Positions 2,867-55,483 of a stretch of 64,000 bases of DNA are shown here, piece after piece. This DNA is from an uncultured Treponema sp. (GTDB lineage Bacteria; Spirochaetota; Spirochaetia; Treponematales; Treponemataceae). Where the stretch lies: contig CAMVHR010000010.1 in assembly GCA_947167345.1 (NCBI GenBank), positions 1 to 64,000 on the forward strand. The letters run 5' to 3'. Every line of letters begins with the position of its first letter. Within the stretch, counting starts at the first letter, position 1. A model generated the notes under the pieces. That model saw only the letters and a list, made by a program, of their open reading frames with translations. It had not been told where the DNA came from and did no database searches. Both the position numbers and the translations under genes were made by a program.

Positions 2867-3048
2867 GAATGGAAATTATTTGTCAACAAGAAAAATCCTT
2901 ATTCAAACTTCGCATCCTAATATTGTCTGCAAATTTTTATAGGATTTATCAGAAGGTTTTCTTTGGTATAAATTTTCGCAAAATTAATGTGAAAATAGAA
3001 AATTCTTGTTGTGTTTTAGTAAAGCCTGAAAAACTGCTTTACTATTGC

Positions 3049-3452
3049 AAACGGTGCAGAAATAATAGGAAATGCTGATAATAATACGGTTTCAAGTCCA
3101 GAAATAGCAGCTGCTTTACCATTAGCCACTATGGAAAATGTACCAGAAGAAATAAGTTCTGCAATTACGGAGTCCATTACAGAACAAACTTCATCTCAGA
3201 ATCTGTATAAAGAAATACCTGCTAATTCAGCAACGGCATGGGGACTTTCTAAAAGACGAAGGATATGACAGCAATAAAGATGCATGTTATCCGAATGTCC
3301 GAAAATATGAAGCCCCTGATGTTGAGGGCGGAATTACTGGAATAAGGCTATGCCGTTCATTAAACAGAACTCCTAAAAAGAAAAGTTTGATTGAGAGCAT
3401 AACAGGCTTTTTTATAGGATTGTTCAAGTGATTGTTGATACTTGTATGATAT
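3049..3452 (+). pseudogene. Collapsed duplicate of the 6170-12188 cassette (Ser-rich protein fragment fused to FGE-protein 3' end)
   Basis: 3049-3251 is nearly identical to 6170-6372. 3247-3452 is nearly identical to 11983-12188. Junction shares TTCTA. Confidence 0.9.
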
Positions 3453-3505: not shown

Positions 3506-3934
3506 TTAAATACTATCATTAAACGGTGTCTCTTGATATTTTAATGTACCGTTTCGTTTCCTGAAAGCCTTTTCTGCCTTCTTAAATTGAGTTCCATGTA
3601 AATCTTTTTGGACTCTGGAAAGTGAAATTCTTCCATGGTAAGAATCTAAATTAGTACATTTGCAAAAGTAATCGAGAGAAGTTTCTAGCTGTCTACTTGC
3701 CCATTCCCTGTCTTTTCCTTTTAATTCAATAAGATATGCAGCATTTTCTTGTACAATAAGAGCATAATCGCATTTATTGCCATTTTTTATTAAAACACCA
3801 TCAACACGAAGTGCTAGAACTTTTTTTTCATTTTTATTTTCAGCATGATAAATGCTTTTACTTCTTGCATCTTTCAAGGATATGTTTTTTCGAGTGTCCT
3901 CAAACAGCTTTGCTTCATTTGGAAAATCATTCAT
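3506..3934 (-). CDS. Small PD-(D/E)XK nuclease-like partner of the upstream ATPase
   Basis: MNDFPNEAKLF...KCDYALIVQENAAYLIELKGKDREWASRQLETSL: D...ExK followed by QLxxSL. ATG at 3934 overlaps the ATPase stop by 8 nt. Confidence 0.6.
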   Translation of the reverse strand: MNDFPNEAKLFEDTRKNISLKDARSKSIYHAENKNEKKVLALRVDGVLIKNGNKCDYALIVQENAAYLIELKGKDREWASRQLETSLDYFCKCTNLDSYHGRISLSRVQKDLHGTQFKKAEKAFRKRNGTLKYQETPFNDSI

Positions 3935-5171
3935 GATCTGAAAACTCCAAATCTTCCAAACGGGAATACTCTTCATTTATTGTTTTAGAACAAGTATCTA
4001 TTTCAGCAGGATTTATCTGTTCAATTTCAGAATCTTTTATGTCATAAATGCTGCCTTCTTTTATGACATACGCAGAAACATCACAATAATCTATGTGATA
4101 CTTTTGTTGCTTTATCATCTCTGAGTGAAAACCTTGGCGTCTAAGGGTTCCTGCATAAATGCAGTTATTCAAAGTTTCCAATACATAAGGACTGTGTGTT
4201 GTAATGAGCAGTGAATTGTTTTTCCTCTTGTTTGCATGAATGACAAGGGAATCTACAAGCCATTTTTGAGATTCTGGAAACAGATTTTGCTCTGGTTCTT
4301 CTACAATATTTATAAGATATTCGTTTATGTATTTTGAATATGAATCTGAATAATCCAGAATATCATTATCTGTAAAATTTTTATTTACACCTGAAACAAA
4401 TAGCAGATTCAGATTTTTCACGACATTTTCATTCTTAATGCCAGATAATATTTCTGACTGTTCATCAGAACTTAAAGAACAGAGCTTTTTCAAAATTGAT
4501 TGTGCGACATCTTGTGAAAGATATTCAGTTACAAGCATGAGTGGAATCATGGACTGTAAGCCACTGGAAGCAAAAGCTACTGGTAGTGCGACATTTGAAT
4601 TTGGTTCAGATACAATAAGAGAGTCGGTAGGCTCATCATATTTTAAACTGTATTTTCCAAGTGGAACTATATCATTATTAGTAAAATACTCATTTTTAGA
4701 TTTTTTTATTTCCTGCTGCAACCATTTGATTGTCTGTGGTAGATTTTTTATTTTATCTGCACCTGCCAGGACTGAAATTACATTGCGTTCGGAAGCAATG
4801 TACATGATTTTTGGACGCTTGTAATTTGCTTTTTGCTGTAGCGTAATTGTAAAATGATTTTTTATATATGTAAAATTTACAAAATCTCCATAGTATGCAA
4901 GTTCTGAGTCTTGCGTAAAATAGGAAGCTGGAAGTTGCTGATTTTTGCATAGGTCTATAAAGTCTTTTTCTGAAAAATCATCTTTTCCATAATCGCCACG
5001 AAAAAGTGCTTTTTCAAGCCAAGAGAAAGATGAATATAATTTTGCAACAGTACTTTTTCCTGCTCCCTGTTCCCCAATGAAAACTGAAAACTTACAGATA
5101 TTCATAAAACCGTCATTGTCTGTGAAACCATTTTTTATTGGACCGAAATTTTTTATTTTCAAGGTAACCAT
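3927..5171 (-). CDS. AAA family ATPase, OLD-like/ABC-type
   Basis: MVTLKIKNFGPIKNGF...FIGEQGAGKST (Walker A), SSGLQSMIPL (signature), NIVEEPEQNLFP (Walker B), LLITTHSPYVLE (H-loop). ATG at 5171 preferred over the track start. Confidence 0.85.
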   Translation of the reverse strand: MVTLKIKNFGPIKNGFTDNDGFMNICKFSVFIGEQGAGKSTVAKLYSSFSWLEKALFRGDYGKDDFSEKDFIDLCKNQQLPASYFTQDSELAYYGDFVNFTYIKNHFTITLQQKANYKRPKIMYIASERNVISVLAGADKIKNLPQTIKWLQQEIKKSKNEYFTNNDIVPLGKYSLKYDEPTDSLIVSEPNSNVALPVAFASSGLQSMIPLMLVTEYLSQDVAQSILKKLCSLSSDEQSEILSGIKNENVVKNLNLLFVSGVNKNFTDNDILDYSDSYSKYINEYLINIVEEPEQNLFPESQKWLVDSLVIHANKRKNNSLLITTHSPYVLETLNNCIYAGTLRRQGFHSEMIKQQKYHIDYCDVSAYVIKEGSIYDIKDSEIEQINPAEIDTCSKTINEEYSRLEDLEFSDHE

Positions 5172-5312
5172 AACATTATTATACCAATTTAATGTAAAAA
5201 TAGAAGTATATTTTGTAGATTTCATAATGGAGCCTTGTCGTGAACCAAAACAGCTTTACAGTCTGTATTAACAGTGATAGTATAAAGACAGTTTTAATAC
5301 AGAGACAATAAA

Positions 5313-6932
5313 ATGAATGGAGATGAAAAAGTCTTAAAATTTGCAACAGAATTGACGGATGAACAGCTTTTTGCTGTAAATGGAGGAGGCTGGCGTTCTA
5401 GTAGCAGCTCCAGTTCATCAAGTAGCAGTTCTCGTTCTTCTGGTAGGAGTTCCAGCTATTCGAGCGGTTCGCACGGAGGCTCTGGAAGCAGCCGTTCGTC
5501 AGGAAGCAGCTCAAAATCTTCTGGTAGCAGCTCAAAATCAAGTGGAAGCTCAAAAAGTAGTGGTAGCAGCCTGGGAAGTAAAATCAGTAGTGCAGCATCA
5601 AGCATAGGAAGCAAGATTAGCAGTGCGGCATCGAGCGTAGCATCAAAAGTCAGCAGTGCTGTAAGCGGAAACAAACAGAATTCCAGCCAGCAGAAGTCTG
5701 GTGCCCAGAAAGCGGCAGCAGTGGCTAAAGGACATATAAATTCTAGTCCAGCAAGCGTTGTTGCCGGTACTGCGGGAACCGGTGCAAAGACATCAAAGCC
5801 GTCAGGAACGGCAGCAACTTCTACTACTGCTACACAAAAGCCTCAGGCAACAGCCAGTGCACCGCAAAATACAGTTACCGTGACAAGAACAACAAACAGT
5901 AGTGCTGATAATGCACCTACGGGAATGACGGGAAGTTCGTCAACTTACCTGTCAGGAAACTTTTCATCATGGAATAATACATCTTCTAGTACAAGTACAG
6001 GACAGAAGCCTAAAACTAATTCATGGAATAGTAGCAGTTCAAGTTCTTCCAGCAGCAGTTCGAATTATTCAAGTGGAGGAAGCAGTTACAGTAATAATAC
6101 GGATTATAGAGGTTATCCTCATACTACGCAGTATATTTCAGCTCCTCAGACAGAAGCCGTTTCTTCTGTAAACGGTGCAGAAATAGTAGGAAATGCTGAT
6201 AATAATACGGTTTCAAGTCCAGAAACAGCATCTGCTTTACCATTATCCACTATGGAAAATGTACCTGAAGAAATAAGTTCTGCAATTACGGAGTCCATTA
6301 CAGAACAAACTTCATCTCAGAATCTGTATAAAGAAATACCTGCTAATTCAGCAACGGCATGGGGACTTTCTACGGAACTTGCAGACAAAAAGAATATGCA
6401 AGAGTATGAAGGTACAGATGATGATGACAAAATGAATGGCGAGGGAAATAAATTCAGCAAAAAAGGCTGTAAGATGGCTTCTACGGCAAAAATGATAAGT
6501 GATGCATTAGGAATAGATGTAAGTCTTATTGATATAAATAGTTATGATTCAAATAATGATGGATGCATGTCCGAAGAGGAGATAGCTTCTGCATTTAGGT
6601 CTTACCTTTCAGCAAATGATTCTGATGCAGAGTTAAAAACCGACTATTGGAAAGATAAGCTTTCAAAAGAAAAGCTAAATGAAATAGTAGCAAAAGAAGA
6701 AGGTACTACGTATGTACTTGGACAAGCAAAAGATGTTTTTGGCGGTGATCATTGGGTTGTACTTACAGGCTACAGACTTAATGATAATGGACAGATACAG
6801 TTTAATTATTCTGGTTCTAGTGTAAATGATGCTAAGCAGCATAGAAATTATATTTTAGGTGAAGCTCTTAGTACACAAAGTGATACATATACTATAACTA
6901 AAATAGAAACATATACATTAGTAAAACATTGA
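5313..6932 (+). CDS. Double-glycine-leader, Ser-rich protein with EF-hand loop and C39-like papain-fold domain
   Basis: Leader MNGDEKVLKFATELTDEQLFAVNGG|GW; long Ser/Gly/Ala low-complexity stretch; EF-hand loop DSNNDGCMSEEE; C-terminal KKGCKMASTAKMISDALG ... GGDHWVVLTGY (Cys/His of C39-like peptidases). Confidence 0.7.
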   Translation: MNGDEKVLKFATELTDEQLFAVNGGGWRSSSSSSSSSSSSRSSGRSSSYSSGSHGGSGSSRSSGSSSKSSGSSSKSSGSSKSSGSSLGSKISSAASSIGSKISSAASSVASKVSSAVSGNKQNSSQQKSGAQKAAAVAKGHINSSPASVVAGTAGTGAKTSKPSGTAATSTTATQKPQATASAPQNTVTVTRTTNSSADNAPTGMTGSSSTYLSGNFSSWNNTSSSTSTGQKPKTNSWNSSSSSSSSSSSNYSSGGSSYSNNTDYRGYPHTTQYISAPQTEAVSSVNGAEIVGNADNNTVSSPETASALPLSTMENVPEEISSAITESITEQTSSQNLYKEIPANSATAWGLSTELADKKNMQEYEGTDDDDKMNGEGNKFSKKGCKMASTAKMISDALGIDVSLIDINSYDSNNDGCMSEEEIASAFRSYLSANDSDAELKTDYWKDKLSKEKLNEIVAKEEGTTYVLGQAKDVFGGDHWVVLTGYRLNDNGQIQFNYSGSSVNDAKQHRNYILGEALSTQSDTYTITKIETYTLVKH

Positions 6933-6946
6933 GTTTGGAGAAATAT

Positions 6947-8299
6947 ATGAAGAATCTTGTTTTAGAAAAATCATTATTAATATTATTATGTGTGAGTTTA
7001 TTCATTTCTTGTTCTAAAATTAAATCTGAGACTTTTACAGCTGAAGGTTCTGAAACAGTTACAGAAATGGCTTCTGTAGAAAATTCTGAAGATGGTTTTG
7101 AACAGCAAAATGAAAATTCAGAAAAAGAAGAAAGTTCAGAATTTGAGTCTGCCAGCCCAAGAATGATTCTTGTTGAAGGGGGAACATTTAAATTAGGAAC
7201 TGAAATAGAAGGTTTTCATGATGTTACAGTAAGTAGTTTTGAGATTGGAGAAACAGAGGTTACTATAGGACAGTATCAGTCTGTTACAGACGAAAAAGAA
7301 ATAGATGAAAGTTTGAGAAATTATCCTGTAACTGATGTAAACTGGTTTGAAGCTATCATATACTGCAATAAATTAAGCATGAAGTGCGGCTATGAACCTT
7401 GTTACAGCATAAATGGAGAAACAAATCCTTTTATGTGGAGTTCTGACATACCTTCTCTCACAGAAGATAAAGGTCAAGTAGGAGATATGACCGTATGGAA
7501 TACAGTGCAGTGTAATTTTAATGCAAATGGTTATAGGCTTCCGACACTTGCGGAATGGACATTTGCTGCTCAAGGCGGAAATGAAAGCAATCATACAAAA
7601 TACAGCGGAAGCAATATAATAAACGAAGTTGGTTGGACAGAAGAAAATTCAAAAGAAAGACATCAAGTTGCAACAAAAAAAGCAAATGAACTTGGCATTT
7701 ACGACATGAGTGGAAATGTCTGGGAATGGTGCTGGAATCGAATAAGTGCTTATGCGAGTGAACCTGAAATAAATCCTACAGGACCTAATGATGGAAATTA
7801 TTATAGAATGCGCTGTGGTGGAGGTTGGGGAACACCTGCATCATGCGGTGATATAACTAAGCATTCAAATGAAAGTCCTGATGTTCAGTCTCCATACATA
7901 GGGTTCCGTTTATGCCGTTCCATTGGGGATCGTACAGAAGTCCAAGCCGAAAAGTCTTCAGAAAATCCTTTCACTCATTGCTATTTTAACAGCGATAAAG
8001 ACCAGATTGTTCTAAGTAATGAAACCGGTAATTACAAACTTAGTGTCTGGCTGTACGGAACTCCAATTGAAGAAGGTGAATATCAAGTTTTCGGAAGCGA
8101 CAAGGAGACTCTGCTTGAAGGAGTTTTAGAGGAAGACAGTGACAGCAGGGACGTAAAGACAACGCTCTTTATCAGTTATTCGGAAGGTGTAATAAAAGTG
8201 TCTGGTTCTGCACAGCTGTATAAACCTCATAGTGCTACAAAGAGCGGTGAAATCTTAGATTTCAACTATGAAGGAAGCCTTGTAAAATTAATGGAATAA
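6947..8299 (+). CDS. FGE-sulfatase/SUMF1-fold lipoprotein
   Basis: Lipobox LCVSLFISC; MILVEGGTFKLG, YRLPTLAEWTFAAQGG, GNVWEWCWN, GFRLCRS motifs. Confidence 0.85.
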   Translation: MKNLVLEKSLLILLCVSLFISCSKIKSETFTAEGSETVTEMASVENSEDGFEQQNENSEKEESSEFESASPRMILVEGGTFKLGTEIEGFHDVTVSSFEIGETEVTIGQYQSVTDEKEIDESLRNYPVTDVNWFEAIIYCNKLSMKCGYEPCYSINGETNPFMWSSDIPSLTEDKGQVGDMTVWNTVQCNFNANGYRLPTLAEWTFAAQGGNESNHTKYSGSNIINEVGWTEENSKERHQVATKKANELGIYDMSGNVWEWCWNRISAYASEPEINPTGPNDGNYYRMRCGGGWGTPASCGDITKHSNESPDVQSPYIGFRLCRSIGDRTEVQAEKSSENPFTHCYFNSDKDQIVLSNETGNYKLSVWLYGTPIEEGEYQVFGSDKETLLEGVLEEDSDSRDVKTTLFISYSEGVIKVSGSAQLYKPHSATKSGEILDFNYEGSLVKLME

Positions 8300-8301
8300 A
8301 A

Positions 8302-9573
8302 TTGAAAAGATTTTACTATTTCTTAATTCCTATTGTCTTATGTGCGTGTTCAAAGAATTTTGTACAGCAGTCGTCTGCACAAGAAGAAACTTCATCTTTT
8401 CAGAAAACAGATATAGAAGTTCCTTTTTATCCTGCTGTTTTTGGAGGAGTTCAAAATCAGTCGGATGGAACTCAGTTATTACTTATTAGAGAATATGACA
8501 AGTCTGAACCTGAAGCCTGTAACACAGCTTATAAGTCTGTAATCATTCCCAAAAAGCCTTGTGAAGACCGATTTATTCCTGTCCAGATGCAAGATAGCAG
8601 TTTATGGACTTATGCGGATGTTTGTAAGAAAGGTTTACCTATTGTTCCTGCAGTTTTTGCGGAAGTAAGACCTTTCAAAGATGGGCTTGGTGCAGTTTGT
8701 CGTGATGGACTTTGGGGATTTATAGATGAGAATGGAAAGCTTGCTGTCAATTTTGACTATATCTCAGTTCAAGATTTTTACAACGGAATATGCATTGTTT
8801 CTTTTATGCAAGGTGAAAAGAAATGGTGGGGAGGTATAGACAGAAGTGGAAAGCTGCTTTTTTCTATTCCAGACAGAACATGGTCTACAGATGGTGTCTC
8901 TGATATTTACAATTTCTATGAGTATGATTATGCCAAAGGAAAGACAGATAATGGAGAATGTTTTATTTCTAGAAGTGGTGAAATTCTTTTAAATAATATA
9001 ACTTTGGGAGATATAGAATTCCTTACAATGAAAGATGACCGCTTTGATTTTGAATATGGAAATAAAACTTTATGTGTTCGAGGATTTTTTGATGATAAGC
9101 TTTACTTACAGACGAAAAGTGAGAGCCGTTCAACTCTTTACGGTGCATTTGACAGGTCTGGAAAATGGATTATAGAACCTGTTCATAAGAATTATTCAGA
9201 AGTCATAGGCATTATAAATAATTCTAAAATTGAAGGAATAAAGCCTTTTCTGAGCACCAGCGTACAAGACGAGGATACAAAGCTGTTTGGTCTAAAAGAC
9301 AGAAACGAAATGTGGCTGGTACAGCCCGAATATGCATTTATTCTGGCAGATAAAGACAATGGATATTTTATTTTGATGACAACGGATGAAAAGTTTGGAG
9401 TTGCTGATGCTTACGGAAGAATAACTGTAGTTCCGAATTATGAAGATATTGCATGCATACATACTAATCCTTTATATTTCTGTGCTTGCAGAAATGGAAA
9501 ATATGGAATTATAAATTTGTCAGGAAAAGAATTGTATTCATTTGAAAATGATGACATGATTTTTCTAGATTGA
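8302..9573 (+). CDS. WG-repeat lipoprotein
   Basis: TTG start; MKRFYYFLIPIVLCACSKN lipobox; repeats such as GLWGFIDENGKLAVNFDYISV and GKYGIINLSGKEL. Confidence 0.75.
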   Translation: MKRFYYFLIPIVLCACSKNFVQQSSAQEETSSFQKTDIEVPFYPAVFGGVQNQSDGTQLLLIREYDKSEPEACNTAYKSVIIPKKPCEDRFIPVQMQDSSLWTYADVCKKGLPIVPAVFAEVRPFKDGLGAVCRDGLWGFIDENGKLAVNFDYISVQDFYNGICIVSFMQGEKKWWGGIDRSGKLLFSIPDRTWSTDGVSDIYNFYEYDYAKGKTDNGECFISRSGEILLNNITLGDIEFLTMKDDRFDFEYGNKTLCVRGFFDDKLYLQTKSESRSTLYGAFDRSGKWIIEPVHKNYSEVIGIINNSKIEGIKPFLSTSVQDEDTKLFGLKDRNEMWLVQPEYAFILADKDNGYFILMTTDEKFGVADAYGRITVVPNYEDIACIHTNPLYFCACRNGKYGIINLSGKELYSFENDDMIFLD

Positions 9574-9592
9574 TATTGTAAAAAGATAAAAA

Positions 9593-10546
9593 ATGAAAAG
9601 ATATCTCTATTTCCTAATTCCAGTTGTCTTATGTGCTTGCTCAAAGAATTCTGTACGACAGTCTGTGCAGATAACAGAACTTACCGAACCAAATAATGCA
9701 TCTGTTAGTGTGCAAAACTCAGAAGCTGAGGATGAGGTAAAAACAGTACATGAAGAAAAACTGTCTCAAATAGACATAGTTTCGGAAGAAGAATATCTTG
9801 CTTTGTATGCTGATACGGATTGCAGTTTAACAAAGCCTAAAATGATATTTGTTGAAGGCAATGAACACCTAGACTTAAGCAGTTTTGAAATTGGAGAAAC
9901 AGAAGTTACAATTGAACAGTACTGCACTGTAATTGGAGAAACTGAATTTAATAAAGAATGGGGAAAACATCCAATAGCTGGCATAAACTGGTTTGAAGCA
10001 ATTATGTTTTGCAATAAATTAAGCATTATGAACGGATATGAACCATGCTACACTTTGAACGGAGAAAAAGACCCTTCTTTATGGAAAGGTGACCTGCCTT
10101 ATTATACAGAAGCAGATGGTCATGTTGGAGACATTAGCGAATGGAATCCTGTACGGTGTAATTTCAATGCCAACGGCTATAGGCTTCCTACAAAAAAAGA
10201 ATGGGCTTTTGCTGCACGTGGCGGAAATAAAAGCAATCATACACAATTTAGCGGAAGTGATGATATAGATGAAGTTGGTTGGACAGAAGAAAACTCTAAA
10301 GAAAGACAGCAAGTAGCAACAAAAAAGCCGAACGAGCTTTGCATATACGATATGAGTGGAAATGTTTGGGAATGGTGCTGGGATAAAATGCGTTCTGATC
10401 CTAATGATTTTCGCCGTATAGTAAAAGGTGGTGGCTGTGGCACGCCAGCTTCATACAGTGCTATTTCATATATATCAAGCGACGAACCTGATGTACAATC
10501 CTTGTATTACGGTTTCCGTTTATGCCGTTCTATTGGAGAACGATAA
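9593..10546 (+). CDS. FGE-sulfatase/SUMF1-fold lipoprotein, paralogue of 6947-8299
   Basis: MKRYLYFLIPVVLCACSKN lipobox; same FGE motifs (YRLPTKKEWAFAARGG, GNVWEWCWD, GFRLCRSIGER). Confidence 0.85.
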   Translation: MKRYLYFLIPVVLCACSKNSVRQSVQITELTEPNNASVSVQNSEAEDEVKTVHEEKLSQIDIVSEEEYLALYADTDCSLTKPKMIFVEGNEHLDLSSFEIGETEVTIEQYCTVIGETEFNKEWGKHPIAGINWFEAIMFCNKLSIMNGYEPCYTLNGEKDPSLWKGDLPYYTEADGHVGDISEWNPVRCNFNANGYRLPTKKEWAFAARGGNKSNHTQFSGSDDIDEVGWTEENSKERQQVATKKPNELCIYDMSGNVWEWCWDKMRSDPNDFRRIVKGGGCGTPASYSAISYISSDEPDVQSLYYGFRLCRSIGER

Positions 10547-10568
10547 AGAAATCTACTAAATAAGAATT

Positions 10569-12167
10569 ATGAGAGTTATGAAACGTAAAATATATCGCTT
10601 ATTACTATTATCGTTATTCTTTTCTACACTGCTCCATGCTGAAATGGTGCGTGTTGAAGGCGGAACATTCTACATGAAAGACTGGAGAAACCAGAAATAT
10701 CATAAAGTAACTGTGAGCAGCTTTGAAATCGATGCTGTTGAAACTGGCATGAGATACAACTGGTGGGAGTCTGTAGCTGAATGTAACCGTATGAGCCGTA
10801 GTTGCGGATATACACCATGCTACAGTCTGAATGGAGAAACCGATGAAAGAAAGTGGGGAAATCCTCCTGAAAGCTGTGAGTTTGACATCATGAAAGTCTG
10901 GTCTGAAATAGAATGTGACTTCAATGCCAATGGATACAGATTACCCACTTCTGCCGAATGGGAATGGGCTGCACAAGGCGGAATCAAGAGTAAAGGTTGT
11001 AAATACAGCGGAAGCAATAATCTGGATGAGGTCGGATGGTATGACGGTAATACACAAATTGATAGAAGATATTTTGATCGCGGTGGACCTGCACCTGATA
11101 TAAACGGAAATTACTGGCAGGAAAGCGCACAGAAAAAGCCTAATGAACTTGGTATTTATGATATGAGCGGTAATATGTGGGAATGGGTCTGGGACTGGTA
11201 CTGGCCGTACAGTGAACTTCCTCAGATAAATCCTACTGGCTACAGTGACAGTGAATGCAGTCTGAAGTGCAAGACTATACGAGGAGGGGGCTGGACTTCT
11301 CCATCACAAGACTGTGAAGTAACATCTTATGCTTGGGCAGAAACCATGACAGAGTCTACAGGGTATGTTGCTTTCAGAGTTTGCCGTTCCCTTACAAAAG
11401 ACCATTCAGATACGGTACTGCTTGAAGACAACGGCACAAACAGGCAGGCACTAAAGCCTGTCATGATATATGTTCCGTGTGCAAATGCACCTACATCGCT
11501 AAATATAGAGCCTTATGAGATTTCCGAGACGGAGCTTAGCCGAGAACTTTATGCACTCATTAGAGGAACGGAACTGTATCAGCCGGAAGGAAATCTGCCA
11601 GTGGAGGGTGTTTCTTGGTATGAGGCTGTTGAACTGTGCAACCTTCTGAGCTTTATGTACGGCTATACTCCATGCTACAGCCTTGGCGGTAAGACAAATC
11701 CTGATGAATGGAAAAATGATGACGGTCTTACATGGAAAAAGATTAAGTGCGACTTTACTGCTGACGGTTACAGGCTTCCGACTGAGATAGAGTGGAACTA
11801 TGCAGCCGAAAGTGGAAAGACTGGGAAAAGACTTATGTCAGAATGCTGGTATTCTGAAAACAGCGGAGGCAGATGCCATGCAGTACTTTCAAAAGCAATG
11901 AACTCTCTTGGAATATACAACATGCTGGGTAATGTGCAGGAATGGTGCTGGGAATCTGCTGCAAAGGATAATCCTGAAAAAGTTCTAAAAGGCGGAGGAT
12001 ATGACAGCAATAAAGATGCATGTTATCCGAATGTCCGAAAATATGAAGCACCTGATGTTGAGGGCGAAATTACTGGAATAAGGCTATGCCGTTCATTAAA
12101 CAGAATTCCTAAAAAGAAAAGTTTGATAGACAGCATAACAGGCTTTTTTATAGGATTGTTCAAGTGA
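10569..12167 (+). CDS. Tandem two-domain FGE-sulfatase-fold exported protein
   Basis: Signal peptide; two copies of the motif set (VEGGTF...GNMWEWVWD...FRVCRS and VEGVSWYEA...GNVQEWCWE...GIRLCRS). Confidence 0.85.
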   Translation: MRVMKRKIYRLLLLSLFFSTLLHAEMVRVEGGTFYMKDWRNQKYHKVTVSSFEIDAVETGMRYNWWESVAECNRMSRSCGYTPCYSLNGETDERKWGNPPESCEFDIMKVWSEIECDFNANGYRLPTSAEWEWAAQGGIKSKGCKYSGSNNLDEVGWYDGNTQIDRRYFDRGGPAPDINGNYWQESAQKKPNELGIYDMSGNMWEWVWDWYWPYSELPQINPTGYSDSECSLKCKTIRGGGWTSPSQDCEVTSYAWAETMTESTGYVAFRVCRSLTKDHSDTVLLEDNGTNRQALKPVMIYVPCANAPTSLNIEPYEISETELSRELYALIRGTELYQPEGNLPVEGVSWYEAVELCNLLSFMYGYTPCYSLGGKTNPDEWKNDDGLTWKKIKCDFTADGYRLPTEIEWNYAAESGKTGKRLMSECWYSENSGGRCHAVLSKAMNSLGIYNMLGNVQEWCWESAAKDNPEKVLKGGGYDSNKDACYPNVRKYEAPDVEGEITGIRLCRSLNRIPKKKSLIDSITGFFIGLFK

Positions 12168-12200
12168 TTGTTGATACTTGTATGATATGGGCTGTGGTCA

Positions 12201-52789: not shown

Positions 52790-53728
52790 ATGAAAAAGAT
52801 ATCTACCATAGTTCCTGTTTATAATGAAGAAAAAAATGTTCTTTTAATGCACCAAGCTTTAAAAGACGTTGCATCAAAGCTTCCCCAATATGACTGGGAG
52901 TTTATTTATATTAATGACGGCAGCGTGGATTCTTCCTGGGCTAACTTACAAAAAATCGCTGATGATGATAAGCGGGTAGTGGCCCTGGACTTTAGCAGGA
53001 ACTTTGGTAAAGAAATAGCATTAACAGCAGGGGTGCAGAACTGCACAGGAGACGCTGCAATCTTTTTGGATTCAGACCTGCAGCACCCGCCGGCCCTTAT
53101 ACCAGACTTTGTTAAAAAGTGGGAAGAAGGGGCAGAGGTTGTAGCAAGTATCCGAAAGTCAACTGAAAAAAAATCCTTTATAAAAAATGCAGGCTCTCAT
53201 TTGTTTTATGCCATGATAAAAAAAATGGGTGGTATGCGGATTACTGAGAATGCAACTGACTTTAAACTTATAGATAAAAAAGTAATAAATGAGCTTTGTA
53301 AATTTACAGAGCACAAACGTTTATTCCGTGGACTTATTGAATGGATGGGCTTTAAGACTGAATATATTGAGTTTGTGGCTCCTGAAAGAATAAACGGGGT
53401 GGCAAGCTATTCTTTTAGGAAGCTTCTGTCGCTTGCCATTAACAGTGTTTCTAGTTTTTCTTTGTATCCTTTAAAGCTTTTTGCTTATTTTGGTGTTCTT
53501 TTGACTATGGGCTCTTTCTTGCTTTTGCTCTTTATGCTATTTCAGCGTTATTTTGGAGATGCTGGAATGTTTAGTTCTATAAGCTATGTTATTGTGTCTA
53601 ATACTCTTGTTTTAGGCATTATGCTTATGAGTCAGGGCTTTTTGGCCTTGTATGTTGGGCAGATACACAATGAAGTGCTTAACAGGCCTTTGTATGTGGT
53701 TAGAGAACGAATTGGTGAAAAAAAATAA
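52790..53728 (+). CDS. GT2 glycosyltransferase, polyprenyl-phosphate sugar transferase type
   Basis: STIVPVYNEEKNV; FIYINDGSVDSSW; DSDLQHPP; two C-terminal TM helices. Confidence 0.9.
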   Translation: MKKISTIVPVYNEEKNVLLMHQALKDVASKLPQYDWEFIYINDGSVDSSWANLQKIADDDKRVVALDFSRNFGKEIALTAGVQNCTGDAAIFLDSDLQHPPALIPDFVKKWEEGAEVVASIRKSTEKKSFIKNAGSHLFYAMIKKMGGMRITENATDFKLIDKKVINELCKFTEHKRLFRGLIEWMGFKTEYIEFVAPERINGVASYSFRKLLSLAINSVSSFSLYPLKLFAYFGVLLTMGSFLLLLFMLFQRYFGDAGMFSSISYVIVSNTLVLGIMLMSQGFLALYVGQIHNEVLNRPLYVVRERIGEKK

Positions 53729-53729
53729 A

Positions 53730-54845
53730 ATGTTAGTAGAATCATTATATATAGAAAATTTTGGGCCTCTAAAAAAAATAAAACTTGAAAATATAACACC
53801 ACTTACGGTTTTTGTAGGAGAGTCTGGAAGTGGAAAAAGTACTATAATGAAAGTTTTGGTACTGTTCAGATATTTATATAAAAAAGTAGTAATACGATCT
53901 TATTTAAGAAATTCTGGAATCTCTAAATCTCATTTTAGAATTCAGTTTAATTATTTTATAAAAAATAATGGTTTTGAAGGTTATATTTCTGATCAGACTT
54001 CAATTATATACAAACGTGGAAGATATTCCATCGAATATAAAAACGGGAAATTAAAACTTAATATTACAGTCTCAAATGAAGATTTATCTTTAGATAAAAT
54101 GAGTTTTATTTCTGATAAGCGAAATATTATTCCAGATATTTTAGAAAAAACTGTTTCAGTATCAGATAAGGATATGTATTTAAATGAGACTTGGCATGAT
54201 TTTCAAGATGCTACTTTGAATTTTACTTCAATGGAAATTCCTTACTTGGGAGTAGTTTTAAATAAAAAGAAGACCCAGAATGGAGTAAAATTTGTTGTAA
54301 AAAATAATAATCTTAGAGCTGAAAGTTATGAAATTGCATTTACGGATTCCTCATCAGGTACACAGAATGTTGCACCGCTTGTTAGTATTTTAGATTATTT
54401 TACGAATCATTATGATTTAATTGCTTCATTTAATAGGGCTATATTAGCTAATCTTTCTGATTCAGATATGTTAAGTAAATTCCGTCCAGAACTTGATATT
54501 GGAAAGATAAAATATAAAAATCTTTATTTTCATATAGAAGAACCAGAATTAAGTTTGTATCCATCTACACAAACAGAATTAATGTCTCAAATTGTGCAGC
54601 TATGTTTTGAAAATAACAATAAAACATTTAATACATATTGTATGATGACAACTCATAGCCCTTATGTTGTAAATTATTTAAATCTGCTTATTAAGCAGAA
54701 AAGGTTGAAATTTGATGATTTATCTGTTTATGAAGTTTTGGCAGGAAATTTAAAATCTCTTAAAAATGAAAAACTTAAAGTAATAGATACAACATTACTA
54801 TCTGAACCAATCTCTAGAATCTATGAAGAATATAACAGAGTTTAA
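53730..54845 (+). CDS. AAA family ATPase, OLD-like/ABC-type
   Basis: MLVESLYIENFGPLKKIKLENITPLTVFVGESGSGKST; SSGTQNVAPLVSIL; FHIEEPELSLYP; MMTTHSPYVVNYL. ATG 53730 follows the GT stop by 1 nt. Confidence 0.88.
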   Translation: MLVESLYIENFGPLKKIKLENITPLTVFVGESGSGKSTIMKVLVLFRYLYKKVVIRSYLRNSGISKSHFRIQFNYFIKNNGFEGYISDQTSIIYKRGRYSIEYKNGKLKLNITVSNEDLSLDKMSFISDKRNIIPDILEKTVSVSDKDMYLNETWHDFQDATLNFTSMEIPYLGVVLNKKKTQNGVKFVVKNNNLRAESYEIAFTDSSSGTQNVAPLVSILDYFTNHYDLIASFNRAILANLSDSDMLSKFRPELDIGKIKYKNLYFHIEEPELSLYPSTQTELMSQIVQLCFENNNKTFNTYCMMTTHSPYVVNYLNLLIKQKRLKFDDLSVYEVLAGNLKSLKNEKLKVIDTTLLSEPISRIYEEYNRV

Positions 54846-54847
54846 AA

Positions 54848-55483
54848 ATGTCTTTAGAAGCATTATTAGTAACAGACTTAGTTAAATATTTTGATTCTCA
54901 GAATTATAAAAGTTTTAAAGGAATAAAAGCTCCGACTGAATATACAAACAAAAAAGCATTTGGTTTAATGGATAAAGAAGACCCATTTATTGTAGAGGAA
55001 GCAAATGGCAGTGTAACGTATAAAAACGATTTGCAGAAAAATATTTGTATAACTAATTATGAAGAGTTTATTAATTCCTTGCCTAAGAGTTTACAAATTG
55101 GTAAAAAACGATGCGATTTCCTTGTATACCAAGATGATAACAATTCTTTTTTTATTCTAAATGAATTGTCACAGAGCAGAAATATAGATGCAAAAGAGTC
55201 TGATGCATTATATCAATTACAAAATACATTAGAAAATTTATGTAGTGTTGATACAATAAAAAGTATAATTAATTCATGTAGACAGCGGTTATGTGTTTTT
55301 TCAAATAAAGTAAAACCTGTAGAGGCCCCGCTTGGAATGACAGCAGGTTTTAATATGACGTATTCCACAGTAATGCTTGATGCTATAACTTTTGAATTTG
55401 ATGGTATTAATATTCATGGCTTTGAATATTATCGTGCAAACTGTATTGACATTGGCGAATCGATTAAATTAAAGAATTGCTAA
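54848..55483 (+). CDS. Nuclease-like partner of the ATPase (degenerate PD-(D/E)XK-like)
   Basis: KKRCDFLVYQDDNNSFFILNELSQSRN...ALYQLQNTLENLC; 2 nt downstream of the ATPase stop. Confidence 0.5.
   Translation: MSLEALLVTDLVKYFDSQNYKSFKGIKAPTEYTNKKAFGLMDKEDPFIVEEANGSVTYKNDLQKNICITNYEEFINSLPKSLQIGKKRCDFLVYQDDNNSFFILNELSQSRNIDAKESDALYQLQNTLENLCSVDTIKSIINSCRQRLCVFSNKVKPVEAPLGMTAGFNMTYSTVMLDAITFEFDGINIHGFEYYRANCIDIGESIKLKNC

Follow-up and report, generated by a model that had tools for sequence, protein, structure and literature searches.

What is an ABC-type ATPase doing beside a small, overlapping, nuclease-like protein at positions 3506-5171 of the window (the whole stretch of 64,000 nucleotides of Treponema DNA analysed here)? 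An earlier note, made from the letters alone, had taken the two for an OLD-like or ABC-type ATPase coupled to a small PD-(D/E)XK-like nuclease, matching no system that it could name. We propose, with a probability of roughly 0.6, that the two genes form an anti-phage defence module (PDC-M29, short-nuclease variant) working like Septu, in which an ATP-gated PD-(D/E)XK nuclease would replace the HNH nuclease. The features of the pair are as follows.

3927..5171, minus strand: ATPase of the ABC/PtuA type, 414 aa (PDC-M29A; ORF, PADLOC, Pfam, AF2, Foldseek)
5049..5075, minus strand: Walker A GEQGAGKST, residues 33-41 (G33, G38, K39 and S40 in 42/42, A4 alignment)
4551..4568, minus strand: ABC signature-like SSGLQS, residues 202-207 (S203, G204 and S207 in 42/42)
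4281..4313, minus strand: Walker B, INIVEEPEQNL region, residues 287-297 (E291, E292, E294 and N296 in 42/42)
4185..4202, minus strand: H-loop TTHSPY, residues 324-329 (T325, H326 and S327 in 42/42)
3930..4181, minus strand: ATPase tail, residues 331-414, co-inherited with the nuclease; proposed docking element (distance correlations, mosaic relatives, trees)
3927..3934, minus strand: stop/start overlap of 8 nt, ATGAATGA (from the sequence; genes overlap in 68 of the 76 relatives with a partner)
3506..3934, minus strand: partner, PD-(D/E)XK-like nuclease, 142 aa (short-type PDC-M29B; PADLOC, AF2, Foldseek)
3689..3802, minus strand: nuclease core D45, C55-D56, E70-L-K72, Q82 (conservation; strand-strand-helix order in the model)

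The ATPase begins at the ATG at 5171 (MVTLKIKNFGPI...), in agreement with the N-terminus of its family, and stops at 3927, with an alternative longer in-frame start at 5225; the partner runs from the ATG at 3934 to a stop at 3506, with an alternative longer in-frame start at 3976. Given the 3934 start, the 8-nt overlap reported earlier is correct, and translational coupling through it is expected. The partner motif quoted in the earlier note, CDYALIVQENAAYLIELKGKD...RQLETSLDYFC, is present letter for letter. The pair looks intact, both reading frames being full length with all conserved catalytic residues there. In the host genome (3.2 Mb, 129 contigs) the partner has one match only at E<=0.001.

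The larger protein possesses the Walker A, signature, Walker B and H-loop motifs of an ABC-type ATPase, with the key residues invariant in 42 sequences. It matches PADLOC PDC-M29A with an E-value of 5.7e-92 and 307 bits over residues 19-405 of the longer ORF, and Pfam AAA_15 at 2.9e-15. In Foldseek the AF2 model (pLDDT 91.2) has PtuA of Septu and retrons as its nearest folds (PtuA at 2e-8), followed by Rad50 and SMC, the whole-chain TM-scores to PtuA being low, about 0.4. Its sequence profile extends to PtuA of retron Ec78, and the NCBIfam PtuA model scores 29 bits, the family cut-off being 500. Family searches detected no Toprim family on the 414-aa protein, whose terminal helix in the model lies ~85 residues past the H-loop. 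Because this leaves no room for a Toprim domain before the C-terminus, the description "OLD-like" holds only for the ATPase head.

The partner family shows the motif of the PD-(D/E)XK superfamily, an acidic residue followed by ExK and a Q in the next helix: in 69 aligned partners D45 is conserved in 69, C55 in 68, D/E56 in 69, E70 in 68, K72 in 68 and Q82 in 65. The D...ExK core and QL-helix picked out from the letters are thus far beyond chance, since the core is nearly invariant in these proteins and 76 of the 80 related loci have a partner directly behind the ATPase. The AF2 model of the partner (pLDDT 90.3, pTM 0.87) has the expected strand-strand-helix order around D...ExK...Q; its best plausible Foldseek match is N.BspD6I (probability 0.92, E 0.06, rmsd 3.8-3.9 A over 91-93 columns), and the matches that superpose well (rmsd <6 A) are mainly PD-(D/E)XK nucleases, including N.BspD6I, Hef, Card1 and NucS. 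As no Foldseek structure matched at E<0.001 and ribosomal proteins, spurious at an rmsd of about 12 A, take several of the top ranks, the fold assignment rests on the motif together with moderate structural similarity. Ten of the 69 partners match PADLOC Cas4_II and others match PDDEXK_9, HSDR_N or NERD, all weak family matches. The window partner matched no family in Pfam and NCBIfam and no HNH family, its profile found no PDB sequence, and a Foldseek comparison with viral structures gave nothing convincing. Motif conservation, the model and the moderate Foldseek similarity nevertheless support the earlier reading of an ATPase with a small PD-(D/E)XK-like nuclease.

The pair is not unknown, because PADLOC catalogues it as PDC-M29; this rules out the reading as an undescribed system. 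The partner matches PDC-M29B weakly (E=1.6e-7, 29.6 bits), a match that is bridged by its homologues, 68 of 69 of which match the same model, the best at 7e-82. Judged from PADLOC E-values, bit scores and gene adjacency, the window pair belongs to candidate PDC-M29 as a short-nuclease variant, catalogued computationally with a function that is only proposed. PMC12988326 describes the PDCs as unvalidated candidates that originate in a preprint by Payne et al. 2024 on "guilt-by-embedding" (bioRxiv 10.1101/2024.01.29.577857). Our literature search found no paper that treats PDC-M29 by name or tests any member experimentally.

The nearest working analogue is Septu, though with a nuclease of another fold. 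Septu defence requires both the ATPase and the nuclease motifs, and infection is abortive (PMC13096335); by this analogy, gating of the nuclease is the most likely role of the ATPase. We propose that the ABC/SMC-head-like ATPase, probably dimeric or larger, would bind and gate the small nuclease, which would dock on its last ~84 residues. As the trigger, phage infection would alter the nucleotide state of the ATPase or provide a nucleic-acid ligand; the nuclease would then be set free, or brought into position, for cutting nucleic acid, and phage replication would be blocked, possibly at the expense of the cell. Both DNA and RNA are considered as the target because PtuAB systems have been reported to cut either (PMC11555353). 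An effector that cuts RNA, such as host tRNA, and arrests translation is conceivable but rather unlikely: a PtuA-like ATPase is common to retron-Eco7 and one E. coli Septu, both of which cleave tRNA-Tyr (PMC11555353, PMC13096335), and Card1 is among the structural matches of the partner, whereas the closest of its PD-(D/E)XK matches, N.BspD6I, Hef and NucS, are DNA enzymes and another Septu is reported to cut nicked DNA (PMC11555353).

The distribution of the pair bears on the proposed defence role. A scan of GTDB genomes returned at least 472 relatives; the 80 loci retained belong to Bacteroidota, Spirochaetota, Cyanobacteriota, Pseudomonadota and a few further groups. The nearest named relatives among the matches listed are Treponema assemblies from rumen and gut samples. 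The two genes are kept as neighbours elsewhere, with the partner directly after the ATPase in the 76 loci and mostly overlapping it by 4 or 10 nt where the genes overlap. Of the other four loci, one lies close to a contig edge (L018) and three lack a partner (L055, L064 and L091); in L055 the ATPase is followed by AbiEi- and AbiEii-looking genes (named by eye). Just 6 of 60 relatives' genomes carry the ATPase, which is therefore an accessory gene, and in one relative genome (G030) it is broken. The neighbourhoods are rich in known defence genes: many of the 124 proteins flanking 29 loci match PADLOC at E<=1e-15, among them type I and II R-M, DpdF, MADS, BREX helicase, PsyrT, SoFic, ThsB, PDC-S01 and PDC-S34, against 0 of 43 other window proteins, a control drawn from one stretch of one genome and a comparison that includes generic PADLOC models such as those for helicases and Fic. 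A Persicobacter plasmid carries the pair between GmrSD/DUF262-like and type III Mod-like genes, and on an IMG/VR phage contig (L098:3950-5690) a full M29-like pair with a short-type partner lies between portal-like and terminase-like genes (all named by eye). A scan of viral contigs with a broad ATPase alignment found relatives, and in two of these a partner-like gene is present; three other scans of viral contigs came up empty. A promoter scan gave no excess over shuffled sequences. On Treponema contig JAFSTK010000094.1 two different M29 pairs, one short-type and one long-type (L015 and L023), lie ~12 kb apart.

The pair could instead be a toxin-antitoxin or addiction module whose ATPase restrains a constitutively toxic nuclease, with no specific anti-phage trigger; this would account for a small nuclease gene overlapping that of a larger partner, for the patchy distribution and for the plasmid copy. 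It is improbable, however, in view of the defence-gene neighbours, the few genomes in which ATPases persist with no partner, and the retron-Eco7 PtuAB proteins, which are toxic only when both are made (PMC11555353).

The surroundings of the pair in the window appear rearranged. The neighbouring "dead ATPase" of the earlier note is real, being a PDC-S27/ATPase_2-DUF234 remnant at 1901-2771 with its middle missing (Pfam, PADLOC). The stretch 3039-3452 is left over from the duplication of a 6-12 kb cassette, with 3039-3251 matching 6160-6372 (96%) and 3247-3452 matching 11983-12188 (97%), about 5.6 kb having been lost between them. Within 5313-12167, possibly a secreted-peptide locus, a Ser-rich protein whose leader (LTDEQLFAVNGGG) is of the double-glycine type is followed by several formylglycine-generating-enzyme-like lipoproteins. 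An intact AAA_14-DUF4143 protein at 13519-14841 matches PADLOC PDC-S01 (5.9e-100), an unvalidated defence candidate. Decay or inactivation of the window copy would fit with the collapsed duplicate and the PDC-S27 remnant that it adjoins, and with the broken ATPase of G030, but is quite improbable for a pair whose ORFs are both full length and keep every conserved catalytic residue. Least probable is that the pair forms a nuclease complex for housekeeping or for recombination and repair, like Rad50/SbcC or RecF. The similarity of the ATPase head to Rad50 and SMC and a suspected AddB-like ORF nearby (1-1773, running off the left end of the window) might speak for it, but against it stand the lack of the ATPase in most relatives, the plasmid and phage-contig copies and the defence-rich neighbourhoods.

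The proposed Septu-like defence module appears to be built from exchangeable parts. In two independent Bacteroidales assemblies (L027 and L031) the ATPase bodies are close to those of L057, L072, L077 and L092 (57-60% for the ATPase as a whole), and from about residue 331 the match switches to L036 (about 70%); their nucleases are 62-68% identical to that of L036 and have almost no alignment score against those of the body relatives. When distances are compared across 74 loci, the partner tracks the tail (r=0.77) more closely than the body (r=0.58), the partial correlations being 0.66 for the tail given the body and 0.25 for the body given the tail; none of 1000 permutations reached 0.66, a test that leaves shared ancestry in, so that the trees weigh more than the correlations. 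Nine short-type members form one clade in the partner tree (100/100) and in the tail tree (100/99, with a long-branch warning), whereas on the tree of ATPase bodies the short type needs 6 changes, at least 4 of which are forced by well-supported branches. In each of the nine short cases the tail motif corresponds to the partner type; a locus flagged by script in this comparison (L021) belongs to the long type, its start being misplaced. Copy 1 of the window carries the short cassette, which PADLOC covers poorly. We conclude from these alignments and trees that the nuclease and the last ~84 residues of the ATPase pass as one cassette from ATPase body to ATPase body, which is new here. Since the tail is inherited with the nuclease while the remaining ATPase is exchanged, we infer that it is a nuclease-docking element.

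Microcystis phage Mic1 (MN013189.1; L095:5001-6239) carries a lone PDC-M29A-type ATPase that shares 93% identity with the copy of a Microcystis host. The 92.6 kb phage genome yielded no nuclease partner, and among highly conserved positions the phage protein has one difference from the host copy, P11S, at an invariant site. It may act as a decoy or dominant-negative protein, a possible counter-defence. More broadly, and with the odds leaning slightly against us, PDC-M29 may be a modular defence chassis, in which an ATPase body, the likely sensor and motor, recombines with a cassette of tail and nuclease that supplies the effector and its dock, with breakpoints around Walker B to the H-loop, at least two effector types, and phages such as Mic1 carrying a lone ATPase as a decoy.

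By its wording "copy 1" the earlier note had implied a second copy in the window, and a further pair does lie near the other end:

53652..54845, plus strand: copy 2 ATPase, a distant PDC-M29A-like relative (PDC-M29A at 5.1e-38)
54848..55483, plus strand: copy 2 partner, 211 aa, CD...NELS, with S replacing the lysine of ExK and no PDC-M29B match

This pair is real but very divergent, the ATPase being 24% and the partner 18% identical to those of copy 1. We rejected it as a second copy of the same system because its partner has neither a PDC-M29B match nor the ExK lysine. Among the 99 genomes searched (its own and relatives), only its own has such a partner, and the pair lies within an apparent cell-surface polysaccharide gene cluster.

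A widespread, catalogued defence candidate thereby gains a testable architecture, with a probable dock at residues ~331-414, candidate catalytic residues and effectors of two types that can replace each other; the orphan phage ATPase in turn suggests a counter-defence hypothesis. Among known systems, OLD, Gabija (GajA) and PARIS (AriA) have the broad ABC ATPase head in common with the window pair, which differs in having no fused Toprim, no UvrD-like GajB and no Toprim AriB; membership of OLD and Gabija was rejected on the missing C-terminal Toprim, and that of Gabija also on the neighbour, a 142-aa nuclease-like protein and not the GajB UvrD-like helicase. The ptuXYZ locus (PMC11980606), also a proposed defence locus, likewise joins a PtuA-like ATPase to a different nuclease, but has three genes, with a PIN'-YoeB effector and a DUF262 gene. 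Septu (PtuA plus PtuB) and the retron I-A effectors share the PtuA-like ATPase, with no Toprim, and the small adjacent nuclease; membership of Septu was rejected because the window partner is PD-(D/E)XK-like (D..ExK..Q core) and PtuB is HNH, and the pair would thus give the HNH-based Septu systems a PD-(D/E)XK counterpart. Closest is PDC-M29 itself, whose M29A and M29B models match the window ATPase and its adjacent partner, the latter a divergent, N-terminally shorter protein with a tail/nuclease cassette of a type unlike that of most members.
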